In this document: positions 3,246 through 7,227 of the stretch, piece by piece | Layout: every line of letters begins with the position of its first letter | Position numbering within the stretch: position 1 is the stretch's first letter | Assembly: GCA_028284945.1 (NCBI GenBank) | Contig: JANQQJ010000017.1 | Location: forward strand, 1 to 46,281 | Direction of reading: 5' to 3' | Origin: Alphaproteobacteria bacterium | Lineage (GTDB): Bacteria; Pseudomonadota; Alphaproteobacteria; SMXS01 | DNA: 46,281 bases | Translations under genes and position numbers: made by a program | Notes under the pieces: generated by a model | What the model was told of the DNA's origin: nothing | What the model saw: the letters and a program-made list of their open reading frames with translations, nothing else | The model's database searches: none

Positions 3246-4046
3246 ATGAGCACCCTGCAGGCAACAGCGAACCAGCTTGAGGAACTGAATCGCCTCATGC
3301 AGCGAGACATTGGCCTTATGGAAGCAGCTGACCTGTTGCGTGGGGCGGGCGAAGTGATGGGCCTGCCTTGGTCCGCTGTTATTGACGATGTGTCGGGAAA
3401 TGCACCTGCTGCGAACGCCGATGTCCGCCTTTTGCTCAAGTACTTCGGGTGGCCCGAATGGATGATCGAGAAGTGGTCCTCACGCGCCTACACAAGACAG
3501 CACCCGATCTACATGCATTGCCGTCTTGAAAACGCGGTCTTCTGTGTCGAAACCGAAAAGATGTGGGATAGCGTGTCGCCGCTGACACCGGCCCAGGAAC
3601 AGATGCGTGCCGATCTTCGGCAACAGGGATCCTTCGGGAGTGTGGTTGCGCCCATTCACCTGTCTCTTGGACGCACGGCAGCTTTGGTTTGGTCTACGCA
3701 AGACAAAGTCGATCTGGAAAACATCGTGGCTTCCTGTGCCGGGCCGCTGCACGCCATTGCCTACAGGTTCATCGCAATCCTGCTGCCAAATGAGCCATCC
3801 TTTGCGGGCGTGCGCGACCTGGCCTATCTGACGGATCGGCAGATCGACTGCCTGTCGTGGCTGGCGCGCGGCAAGACGATCGCGGAGACGGCAACCATTC
3901 TCGATATTTCAGTCCACACCATCCGCGATCACCTGCGCGACATCACGGCTCGTCTGAACGCCGTCAATACAACGCATGCGGTGGCCATCGCGTGCCAACT
4001 AGGCATTGTGAAGCCCCTACTTAAGGGGCCGAAGGATGACGCGTAG
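3246..4046 (+). CDS. LuxR-family solo regulator with autoinducer-binding-like domain
   Basis: A 266-residue transcription regulator. Residues ~15-175 resemble the autoinducer-binding domain of LuxR/TraR proteins, and 194-255 form a LuxR/GerE helix-turn-helix (LTDRQIDCLSWLARGKT, then VHTIRDHL). The ATG at 3246 has GAGG about 7 bases upstream. No luxI-type synthase is in the window, so it is an orphan here. The usual Asp of the DP pair in the ligand pocket appears to be His (H86-P87 in AYTRQHPIY) and the downstream Trp position looks changed, so it may sense something other than an acyl-homoserine lactone. It is divergent from the P450/CmcJ pair and probably controls it. Its stop abuts the stop of the convergent redoxin gene. 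Confidence 0.88.
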   Translation: MSTLQATANQLEELNRLMQRDIGLMEAADLLRGAGEVMGLPWSAVIDDVSGNAPAANADVRLLLKYFGWPEWMIEKWSSRAYTRQHPIYMHCRLENAVFCVETEKMWDSVSPLTPAQEQMRADLRQQGSFGSVVAPIHLSLGRTAALVWSTQDKVDLENIVASCAGPLHAIAYRFIAILLPNEPSFAGVRDLAYLTDRQIDCLSWLARGKTIAETATILDISVHTIRDHLRDITARLNAVNTTHAVAIACQLGIVKPLLKGPKDDA

Positions 4047-4808
4047 TCATTGAAGCGCCTGGAAATGTTCGTCCAGCGCCGCGCGGACGGTATCAGGATC
4101 ACTCCGCTGCATATAGTCGGCGGATTGGTCCTTCCAGCGGACGACGCCCTCGGCGTCCAACATCAGCGTTGTCGGGACCGGGAGGCCATTCACACCAGGC
4201 GGTCGGACAGCGGTGTTGAGATTGCGAAGGCCGAACAGTTCCGTGACCGCGAGGTCCGGATCCGACAGGAACGTACCCTCAAGGCCGTGTTTGCCGCGGC
4301 CCTGTGTGATCTGCTCCGGCGTATCGGTACAAACCGCAACCACCTTCATGCCGCGCTGTTCCAGATCATCGCTCAGCTCTTCTGCCCATCGCCGACACTC
4401 GGCGACACAGTAAGGTCACCAATGACCCCGGAAGAACTTGAACAGCGTGGGGGTGCCGATCAGGGCGTCCGAATTATAGGTCCGCGCCTGATCGTCGAGC
4501 GCCTCGAACATCGGGACCCTATCGCCGACCATGATGGGATTGGCGGCGTTCTGTTTCCGCAGGGTATAGAGTCCGAGAAAGAACACACCGCCGATGGCCG
4601 AAAGTCCGCCAAGGAAGTAGCTCAACCAGTTTGTCCCTGGCCCGCCAAGGCTCGCCAGTCCCAGCACGCCGGCACCCGCCCAGCCGAGCAGAAATGCCAG
4701 CCGGTTATCCGGTATCGCCACCTGGCTCGCCCGCTTGAACCACACGGTCGTCGTCACGATCACGAGCAAAAGGCCGGCAAGGCCGAGCAGAGTTGCAGTG
4801 CTGAACAT
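4047..4808 (-). CDS. Membrane-anchored redoxin, probable selenoprotein (UPYC)
   Basis: Read as one frame of 253 residues with TGA (4416-4418) decoded as selenocysteine at residue 131. Residues 1-84 hold about three hydrophobic segments; ~92-253 form an AhpC/TSA-like thioredoxin fold. The site reads FRGHW-[TGA]-PYCVAECRRW, where relatives have FRGHWCPYC, so the TGA falls exactly on the first Cys of CxxC. Frame is kept on both sides, and the downstream part stays conserved-looking (GLPVPTTLMLDAEGVVRW), unlike a decayed gene. A SECIS-like hairpin follows the TGA. The start at 4808 has GGAGA 8 bases upstream. It would reduce thiols or peroxides with the redoxin domain tethered to the membrane. 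Ordinary gene callers would split it in two. Alternative: pseudogene with a nonsense mutation. No sel genes are in the window. Confidence 0.82.
4387..4418 (-). promoter_or_regulatory. Bacterial SECIS-like hairpin after in-frame TGA
   Basis: In the mRNA, UCGCCGA (4405-4399) pairs perfectly with UCGGCGA (4395-4389) around a GUG loop, extended by two G-U pairs. The loop begins 17 bases after the UGA and its first base is G. This matches the known bacterial SECIS pattern (short hairpin just after the UGA, G in the first two loop positions). SelB recognition is inferred. Confidence 0.72.
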
Positions 4809-4893
4809 TCAGGTTTCTCCGAATAACAACGGTAATGCTAGTGACTTGAGGGCCGGGCCGCAATCGTGCTGCGCCCCTCATCAAAGCAATATA

Positions 4894-4929
4894 TTGACAT
4901 TCGTCTCAAATGAGACATATATGTCTCAT
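4894..4929 (+). promoter_or_regulatory. TetR-gene promoter with overlapping palindromic operator
   Basis: TTGACA at 4894-4899 is followed after 17-18 bases by ATATAT/TATATG (4917-4923). A perfect 20-bp palindrome, ATGAGACATA plus its complement, covers 4910-4929, including the -10 region and the regulator's start codon. A third half-site, GTCTCA at 4903-4908, pairs with TGAGAC at 4911-4916. This is a textbook layout for autorepression, and it may also control the divergent redoxin gene. Confidence 0.8.
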
Positions 4930-5482
4930 GAACAATTCACTTCGTCCCACAACACGAGATGCCATCATCGAGGCATCGTTTGAAATCCTGAGCCGTGATC
5001 CGAGCGCGCCGCTCTCCGACGTGGCTGACCGCGCGGGTGTCGGCCGCGCCACGCTTCATCGCTATTTCGCCAGCCGCGACGATCTGGTCCGGGCCCTGGC
5101 GATGATTGCCATGGAGGAGACAGAGGCAGCAGCAGAGGAAGCGTGTTCAGATGTGTCCTCATATGCAGAAGCGCTTGAACAAACGCTAAAGGCTCTGATC
5201 CCCCTGGGCGACAGGCATGGTTTCCTGGCGCTCGAACCATTCGATGGCGATGACGACGTTGACGCCGCATATGCGCGCCAAATGACTGAAATCCGCGACA
5301 TGGTTGACCAGGCAAAACAGGAAGGGTTTTTCGACCTGGGCGTCCCGACGGCATGGATCGCGCAAGCCTTCGACTATTTGATCTATGCCGGTTGGGAAAG
5401 CGTCAAGGCGGGTGAGGCGACGCATCAACAGGCGGCCGATCTGGCCTGGCGGACTCTTACCATTGGCCTCGGGAGCAAGTGA
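4928..5482 (+). CDS. TetR-family transcriptional regulator
   Basis: A 184-residue TetR-type repressor. The N-terminal helix-turn-helix is clear (APLSDVADRAGVGRATLHRYFASRDDL, residues ~28-53); the rest is a helical ligand domain of unknown specificity. I chose the ATG at 4928; a longer frame begins at 4910 inside the palindrome. Neither has a Shine-Dalgarno site, and the promoter places transcription start at about 4929-4930, so translation may be leaderless. The gene is followed after 4 bases by the sterol-desaturase-like gene, implying one transcript, and is divergent from the redoxin gene. Confidence 0.9.
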   Translation: MNNSLRPTTRDAIIEASFEILSRDPSAPLSDVADRAGVGRATLHRYFASRDDLVRALAMIAMEETEAAAEEACSDVSSYAEALEQTLKALIPLGDRHGFLALEPFDGDDDVDAAYARQMTEIRDMVDQAKQEGFFDLGVPTAWIAQAFDYLIYAGWESVKAGEATHQQAADLAWRTLTIGLGSK

Positions 5483-5486
5483 GCTG

Positions 5487-6377
5487 ATGACACTCGACCA
5501 AATTCAGGAATGGGGCACTGCGTTTGACGATGGGTTCTTTCTCATCGGCGCGGCAATCCTTCTGATCGAAATCGCCAAGGGACTGTTCAACCGCTCGCTT
5601 AAAGGGCGCGGTTTCATGGATATGGTGGCCAGCATCTCGACCCAGATCCCCTCCGTGCTCATCGAGATTTTCGTGTTTTCCTTCGCCTATGCAGGGTGGG
5701 CGCTGCTCGCAGAGAATGCAGTCCCTTGGACCCTGCCGGTTACCATAGGGACGGTGGCGCTGACGCTGCTAGCGTGCGACTTCATTTACTATTGGGAGCA
5801 CCGGATCGCGCATGAAGTCCGCCTGTTCTGGACACAGCACGCGGTCCACCATTCGTCGCGGTTTATGAATGTCAGTGTCGCGATACGGTTTGGGCCACTC
5901 GAAGGATTCCTCTCTGTTCTGTTCCACACACCTTTGGTGCTTATCGGGTTTCCACCCGAAATTGTCATCACCGGCATCTTGGTGGTTCTGGCGTACCAGA
6001 CATGGATCCATACGGAGCTGATCGGAAAACTCGGCGTCCTGGATGCTTTTCTCAACACCCCGGCCAACCACCGGGTGCACCATGGCTGCGACGACAAATA
6101 CATCGACAAGAACTATGGCGGCATCCTGATCATCTGGGACCGGCTGTTCGGCACCTATCAGCGCGAAGAAGAGCGCCCAGTCTATGGCCTCAAGCGGGAT
6201 TTCTCGAGCGTGAACCCGTTTGTCGTCTGGTTCTCTGAACTGCCTGAGTTTTTTCGGGAACTCGGTAAGGCGCAGACCCTGGGCGAGGGGTTACGCTATG
6301 CGTTCGGGCGGCCGGGTCACGCAGCGGCACGCCCTAAGCCGCCAGCCGTCAAACAAGAAGCGACGGAACATGTCTAA
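5487..6377 (+). CDS. Sterol desaturase / fatty acid hydroxylase family protein
   Basis: A 296-residue integral membrane di-iron oxygenase of the fatty acid hydroxylase superfamily. Hydrophobic segments at ~15-32, 50-75, 82-100 and 140-172 surround the histidine boxes: H105-xxx-H109, H118-AV-H121-H122, H175, and NHRVHHG (H195, H198, H199). These enzymes hydroxylate or desaturate lipid-like substrates at the membrane. The ATG at 5487 lies 4 bases after the TetR stop, so the two are translationally coupled and the regulator probably controls this enzyme. A longer frame starting at 5385 would overlap TetR and is unlikely. The real substrate (sterol, fatty acid or carotenoid) cannot be told. Confidence 0.9.
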   Translation: MTLDQIQEWGTAFDDGFFLIGAAILLIEIAKGLFNRSLKGRGFMDMVASISTQIPSVLIEIFVFSFAYAGWALLAENAVPWTLPVTIGTVALTLLACDFIYYWEHRIAHEVRLFWTQHAVHHSSRFMNVSVAIRFGPLEGFLSVLFHTPLVLIGFPPEIVITGILVVLAYQTWIHTELIGKLGVLDAFLNTPANHRVHHGCDDKYIDKNYGGILIIWDRLFGTYQREEERPVYGLKRDFSSVNPFVVWFSELPEFFRELGKAQTLGEGLRYAFGRPGHAAARPKPPAVKQEATEHV

Positions 6378-6396
6378 GCCCAGGGCGAGCGATCAG

Positions 6397-7227
6397 CTAG
6401 AACCGGCCGACGAGGTAGCCCATCACGCCCGTGTGGGCGTAGTCGATCGAGCCAATCCAGTTTTCGTCATCAACGTCGAGGCTGAAATCCAGGCGGTTGA
6501 AGCTGACGCCGACACCGACATTTTCAAAGATGTAGTATTCGATAAACAGGCGAATGTCGTACATCTCGCCGTCCAGATTGCCGATCGACAGGTTGAGCCA
6601 CTGACCTGAGGCGCCGATCTCCCAACGATCCGAGAGCTTGTGATTGACGTGAAAGCCGATCAGCGGGAACGGCCCATCCACCCGTGAGGTCTGTTCTTCA
6701 AATGAAACTGTTGATCGGCCAGCGAGAAACGCGTCACCAGCGATACTCGCGCGGACGCGAATCCAATGAACGCCCAGTGAGGCGGCAACCTCCCAGTTTT
6801 CCGTGTGGACAAAGGAATAGGCGTAGCTGAGCGGCATGATCCGCCACGAGCCACTTGCTTCAATGGTGGCGCCGGTCGGATAGACGGAATCGCGCCACTC
6901 AACATCTCCGGCCAACACACGCTCACCGCTTCTGGAGAGACGGTAATAGCCAACGAAGAGCCTGTGGCGCTTCCAGAGCCGAATTGACGCATCGATGCGG
7001 AAGGTAAATTCGCTGGAGCCGAAGCCTAGGTCGTCTTCGGGGTCGATGGTGCTGTTTGTGCCGTCCTCTTCAAAATCGATCTGAAGGTCGGATCCAATAT
7101 CCGTGAACAGCCCCGAGACGGTTAACTTTGCTGTCTCCTGGCCAAACAGGCCCGCAGCCTCGGCCCGGGTTTCTGTTAAGGCTGCTAGCAGTATGATGCT
7201 AAGGCCCGCTACCTTCGCCATGGTCAT
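6397..7227 (-). CDS. Putative outer-membrane beta-barrel protein
   Basis: A 276-residue exported protein of unknown function. The ATG at 7227 is preceded by a run of six G and begins a signal peptide (MTMAKVAGLSIILLAALTETRAEA). The mature part is rich in alternating hydrophobic and aromatic residues in short strands (RLFVGYYRLSRSG, IRLFIEYYIFENVGVGVSF) and ends in phenylalanine (YLVGRF), both typical of outer-membrane barrels. It runs convergent to the sterol-desaturase gene. A porin-like or structural barrel is likely; no specific substrate can be given. Confidence 0.75.
   Translation of the reverse strand: MTMAKVAGLSIILLAALTETRAEAAGLFGQETAKLTVSGLFTDIGSDLQIDFEEDGTNSTIDPEDDLGFGSSEFTFRIDASIRLWKRHRLFVGYYRLSRSGERVLAGDVEWRDSVYPTGATIEASGSWRIMPLSYAYSFVHTENWEVAASLGVHWIRVRASIAGDAFLAGRSTVSFEEQTSRVDGPFPLIGFHVNHKLSDRWEIGASGQWLNLSIGNLDGEMYDIRLFIEYYIFENVGVGVSFNRLDFSLDVDDENWIGSIDYAHTGVMGYLVGRF

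Follow-up and report, generated by a model that had tools for sequence, protein, structure and literature searches.

A redoxin gene interrupted by one TGA codon

The window, by which we mean the whole stretch of 46,281 nucleotides of alphaproteobacterial DNA analysed here, carries a gene of 253 codons at 4047-4808. These coordinates are those of an earlier reading made from the sequence only, which had left the strand unstated. It is the minus strand that carries the gene, with its ATG at 4808 and a TGA stop at 4049-4047. Its single interruption is another TGA (4418-4416, codon 131), located at the first position of the CxxC site of a redoxin (FRGHW-U-PYC, where U marks the TGA). The features of the locus, and those of related loci mentioned below, are collected in Table 1. 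The gene is flanked by genes for a LuxR-type (3246-4046, plus strand) and a TetR-type regulator (4910-5482, plus strand). A partial 16S sequence is present at the end of the window, and its closest matches among plasmid records are alphaproteobacterial replicons, from which the taxonomy of the host was deduced.

Table 1. Features of the redoxin locus (window coordinates) and of related loci (coordinates of the locus named)
Feature	Position	Strand	Remark
Predicted selenoprotein CDS	4047..4808	-	253 codons with Sec at TGA 131, followed by TGA stop 4047-4049
Shine-Dalgarno-like GGAG	4817..4820	-	8 nt upstream of ATG; from sequence
Membrane helix 1, residues 4-28	4725..4799	-	AlphaFold2 model; hydropathy
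Membrane helix 2, residues 37-55	4644..4700	-	AlphaFold2 model; hydropathy
Membrane helix 3, residues 61-83	4560..4628	-	AlphaFold2 model; hydropathy
AhpC-TSA/Redoxin domain, residues 94-234	4107..4529	-	Pfam
Predicted Sec codon TGA (U of UPYC, residue 131)	4416..4418	-	TGA also in 15 relatives
Cys134, proposed resolving cysteine	4407..4409	-	invariant in 14 aligned proteins
Putative bSECIS hairpin	4388..4406	-	arms 4400-4406 and 4388-4394, loop AGUGU 4395-4399
Second TGA redoxin (SAVW-U-PPC)	L072 about 5481-6722; L073 about 5110-6372	+	
Protein of about 530 residues, CPTC site	L060 16-1608; L056 1099-2685; L057 987-2576	-	

Both halves of the gene form a single AhpC-TSA/Redoxin domain across the TGA in Pfam searches (PF00578, E 1.1e-20, 74.3 bits for a cut-off of 26; PF08534, E 3.6e-18), so that the 3′ half does contain the normal redoxin sequence it had been credited with. 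The placement of the TGA at the first Cys of the redoxin CxxC site was confirmed, as more distant membrane redoxins have a Cys at this codon. It had also been argued that the two halves stay in one frame. This is true but weak evidence, since 27 TGA codons in the window are preceded by 90 or more open codons and followed by 60 or more, and frame continuity was rejected as a stand-alone argument. What gives the selenoprotein case its weight is that homology extends to both sides of the TGA, that the TGA falls on the catalytic Cys, and that the relatives described below share it.

The fusion of the redoxin to three membrane segments was borne out by hydropathy and by an AlphaFold2 model, computed with Cys in place of Sec (mean pLDDT 90.4). 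In the model, three helices are followed by a thioredoxin-like domain, and residue 131 stands immediately before the active-site helix (residues 132-144). Charged residues are found between helices 1 and 2 (K25, R26, R36) and after helix 3 (R84, K85), and none between helices 2 and 3, a pattern which by the positive-inside rule places the redoxin domain probably in the cytoplasm. We conclude that the predicted product is very likely a membrane-anchored UxxC redoxin.

Conservation of the TGA and of the hairpin that follows it

A TGA at exactly codon 131 was found in 15 relatives from other genomes, none of which has another internal stop or a frameshift. They comprise 4 MAG relatives (57-64% identity across the full length), 4 genomes of the class, and 7 additional genomes of the order to which L024 belongs; the L068 copy runs into a contig end and is incomplete. 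The UPYC motif is present in the window protein and in 15 of the 15. Among the 385 genomes of the class, 398 of the phylum and 391 of the order that were searched, all matches at E 1e-44 or better have the TGA, and the next matches (L051, L052 and L070, E 1e-40 to 1e-32) share the three-helix layout, with TGC instead of TGA. Counting Cys versus TGA in relatives, as had been suggested, therefore gave TGA in all the close ones and Cys in the more distant ones. The reverse picture, with TGAs spread at unrelated positions and frameshifts, was not seen in the relatives.

Alternatively, a nonsense mutation, pseudogene formation or a sequencing error could have placed a dead stop in a Cys redoxin that is decaying. 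Two separate ORFs are indeed what the standard code yields. However, the 15 relatives with the identical TGA come from independent assemblies and have 0 other stops or frameshifts, residues are conserved on both sides of the TGA, and the hairpin described below contains compensated pairs. As far as the sequence reaches, a dead stop is refuted, and we hold it to be very improbable; the original argument that a random nonsense mutation would hardly fall on the catalytic Cys is supported by the same relatives.

A tree built from 15 Sec forms and 7 Cys forms places the Sec forms in two blocks; the three close Cys forms stand beside one of these with weak support (82/59). It is possible that Sec arose once in these redoxins. 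The partner of the window protein in this tree is L021, which comes from Pseudomonadales (95/93), and horizontal transfer is a likely explanation. No relative of the redoxin was found in viral contigs; plasmid homologues, among the matches listed, were distant only (about 32% identity or less, none spanning 80% of the protein), and searches of the orders around G036 and G131 gave no genomes beyond those already found. The host genome has a second membrane redoxin, a Cys form (RGNWCPLC) that is 21% identical (L039 1378-2238, plus strand, on G000:C23). In the sister genus G009, the N-terminal third of the gene is present at a contig end (L029 1501-1752), and a second contig (L045 3-92) begins inside the gene and then diverges; these pieces reflect either a broken assembly or a truncated gene.

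Directly after the TGA lies the hairpin UCGCCG-AGUGU-CGGCGA. The minimum-energy fold closes the A-U pair too, so that the loop shrinks to GUG at 17 nt from the TGA, which agrees with the sequence-only reading (G first in the loop, distance 17). According to the published rules, as excerpted from PMC13188914, a bSECIS has a loop of 3-9 nt, a stem of 4-16 bp, a G among the first two loop nucleotides, a distance of 16-37 nt from the UGA and an MFE of at most -7.5. The corresponding values for the redoxin hairpin are a loop AGUGU (or GUG), a stem of 7-8 bp, 16-17 nt and -16.6 kcal/mol. The hairpin thus conforms to the bSECIS model, and covariation was seen as well. Standard pairs fill 97.8% of the pair cells in the 13 sequences that have the proximal hairpin. 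Three sequences show G-U instead of C-G at pair 17/27, and two show U-A instead of C-G at pair 18/26; these amount to few events, probably one for each pair. The covariation score of 0.28 was reached by 0 of 500 shuffles, slid versions giving 0.08 or less, and RNAalifold recovered the identical helix independently. The loop core AGT is invariant. Where the residue is kept, codon identity amounts to 70% over the ten codons that follow the TGA versus 37% elsewhere; this stretch shows the strongest synonymous conservation of the gene, with the top of 260 scanned segments located there.

No such hairpin was obtained by folding the Cys genes, nor did the covariance model find one in them. In the 46-kb window, this model matches only the site after the TGA, which was in its training set. 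Rfam gave no match at the gene. Three of the 15 relatives (L063, L067 and L068) keep the TGA and have a weak match to the proximal hairpin (22-31 bits), which is degraded in all of them (L063 1876-1947, L067 1876-1947, L068 1771-1842). A second hairpin, GAGCUUC-GGUC-GGAGCUC, lies about 40 nt after the TGA and is identical in 3 of 3. It may be that the SECIS moved downstream in this branch, to a place slightly beyond the 16-37 nt rule.

Selenocysteine machinery of the host

The genome to which the window belongs (3.56 Mb, 44 contigs, 99% complete) was found to contain selA, selB, selC and selD, the four genes that the sequence-only reading had proposed to look for; selB and selC, whose absence it held to be decisive against Sec, are both present. 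The tRNA-Sec gene selC scores 78.7 bits, above the cut-off, with anticodon tca by ARAGORN, and it shares contig C14 with selA (1.3e-172), selB (1.1e-84) and selD (1e-108). This selD itself has an in-frame TGA in a UxxK Sec site, SAG-TGA-AGKL (L060 about 2030, plus strand, G000:C14), so the host genome has a second Sec gene. A stretch TCGCA-AGTTT-TGCGG lies 30 nt further on, with a loop resembling that of the redoxin hairpin. The hairpin UCGCA-AGUUU-UGCGG was read by eye; a 20-nt fragment folds that way, and a 56-nt fragment folds differently.

All 9 TGA-redoxin genomes tested, 5 from the class sample and 4 MAG genomes, have selA, a count from which the genomes of L062-L068 are left out. In the class sample, selA is present in 55 of the 385 genomes, including 5 of the 5 with a TGA redoxin (Fisher p 5e-5, or 3.5e-4 without the host's own genome, relatedness being ignored in both). 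The closest Cys forms have selA in one of two genomes tested, which is as expected, because selA shows only the trait.

The same full-length protein would also result if the UGA were read through, or reassigned to Trp or a near-cognate residue, without selenium. We consider this to have a negligible probability: TGA also terminates the same gene, relatives have Cys and not Trp at the UGA position, selA occurs in all the TGA carriers tested, and the full sel set is present in the host. Taken together, Sec is, on sequence grounds, almost certainly encoded at TGA 131, and it is highly probable that the gene specifies a selenoprotein that is also a membrane-anchored redoxin. In the process we propose, SelB with Sec-tRNA(Sec) would bind the hairpin just 3′ of UGA codon 131, and insertion of selenocysteine would give a protein of 253 residues, anchored in the inner membrane via its three N-terminal helices with the redoxin domain in the cytoplasm.

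Proposed activity, known families and gene neighbourhood

By analogy with what is established for UxxC redoxin chemistry, the selenolate of Sec131, located where the active-site helix begins, would attack a hydroperoxide or a disulfide, Cys134 would resolve the intermediate as a selenenylsulfide, and a thioredoxin-like donor would reduce the Sec131-Cys134 selenenylsulfide. We give this detailed scheme an even chance of being right as proposed. Roles as peroxidase and as disulfide reductase appear about equally likely. The classical peroxiredoxin signature PxxxT/SxxC is absent, the site being FRGHWUPYC with U131 in the T/S position. In an alignment with a Bcp, U131 falls on the Ser of 'fSPVC' and C134 on the peroxidatic Cys, from which it follows that UxxC is not a classical peroxiredoxin site but one of thioredoxin type. 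This argues for a selenoprotein acting as a ResA/TlpA-type thiol-disulfide oxidoreductase rather than as a peroxidase, and so does the fact that the best PDB sequence matches are ResA. On the other hand, a Foldseek structure search ranks the Bcp, Tpx and AhpE peroxidases above ResA, and the outward orientation of ResA-type proteins differs from the cytoplasmic location that the charge pattern suggests for the domain here. The probability that we attach to the ResA/TlpA-type role falls a little short of one half.

More than 100 bacterial selenoprotein families are already known. The selenoprotein surveys excerpted here (PMC13188914, PMC9312934, PMC2398784) list UxxC selenoproteins of Prx-like type that carry PF00578 or PF08534, among them the Prx-like thiol:disulfide oxidoreductases (PF00578, UxxC/UxxU; PMC13188914 table 1; 'Prx-like 1' in PMC2398784). 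These oxidoreductases share the PF00578 family and the UxxC motif with the window protein and are likewise bacterial and computationally predicted. The excerpts mention no membrane anchor for them, a comparison by description in which the groups may overlap. Similarly, a redoxin family selenoprotein (PF08534, UxxC, HEU0032618.1), also compared by description, has the Pfam family and the motif type in common with ours. As far as these excerpts go, a three-helix anchor is not mentioned for any listed family. Thus UxxC Prx-like selenoproteins are already known, and for the membrane-anchored subfamily, set apart by descriptions only, no account was found in the excerpted sources; it may sit unnamed inside 'Prx-like 1' or 'redoxin family'. 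Literature matches to UPYC, among those listed, were unrelated words only.

ResA/TlpA/DsbE thiol-disulfide oxidoreductases also combine a membrane anchor with a CxxC redoxin domain, but here Sec is predicted in place of the first Cys, there are three helices and the domain is probably cytoplasmic; the ResA family model NF002854 gives 26.4 of 170 bits, far below its curated cut-off. Sec peroxiredoxin (Prx, TxxU) has the AhpC-TSA fold in common, but its Sec is the peroxidatic residue, whereas here Sec would occupy the T position and be followed by the Cys. Similarity to SelL-related redoxins (NF040769), which have UxxU instead of UxxC, is distant: the window protein scores 21.5 and its best relative 35.7, for a curated cut-off of 120 bits. 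With AhpC-TSA_2/SelU-like PF13911, the window protein has no match at E 0.1, and one relative a weak one (23.2 of 27 bits). For the membrane-anchored subfamily, no NCBIfam model comes near its curated cut-off.

Annotation of the TGA as a stop splits such genes in two, hence a membrane-anchored family is easily overlooked. If translated as predicted, these proteins would extend Sec redoxins to an inner-membrane setting, with one architecture available in a Sec and a Cys form for direct comparison, a SECIS in which two stem pairs change together around a fixed loop core and, in some genomes, a gene placed beside the Sec machinery. The latter arrangement was found in G131, G099 and G234, where the TGA redoxin adjoins selC on the same strand and selD and selA are divergent, selB too where the contig reaches. 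The host genome has selC, selD, selA and selB in a similar cluster, without the redoxin, which is on a different contig. As certain Alphaproteobacteria-like genomes have the redoxin beside selC, selD and selA, the membrane selenoredoxin might serve selenium metabolism, delivering reduced selenium to SelD or reporting selenium status, and spread from one bacterial class to another as a module that depends on selenium; we regard this as an unlikely reading.

Beside selC in three genomes, including the host (L060), where it is the related 530-residue neighbour of the sel cluster, there is a gene for a protein of about 530 residues that has a thioredoxin-like CPTC site at its N-terminal end; this protein had no Pfam match above cut-off. 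Finally, in G1033 and G1104 the UPYC redoxin has as its neighbour another redoxin, also interrupted in frame by a TGA (SAVW-U-PPC) and fused to a longer C-terminal part, which from its sequence is likely to be another selenoprotein.
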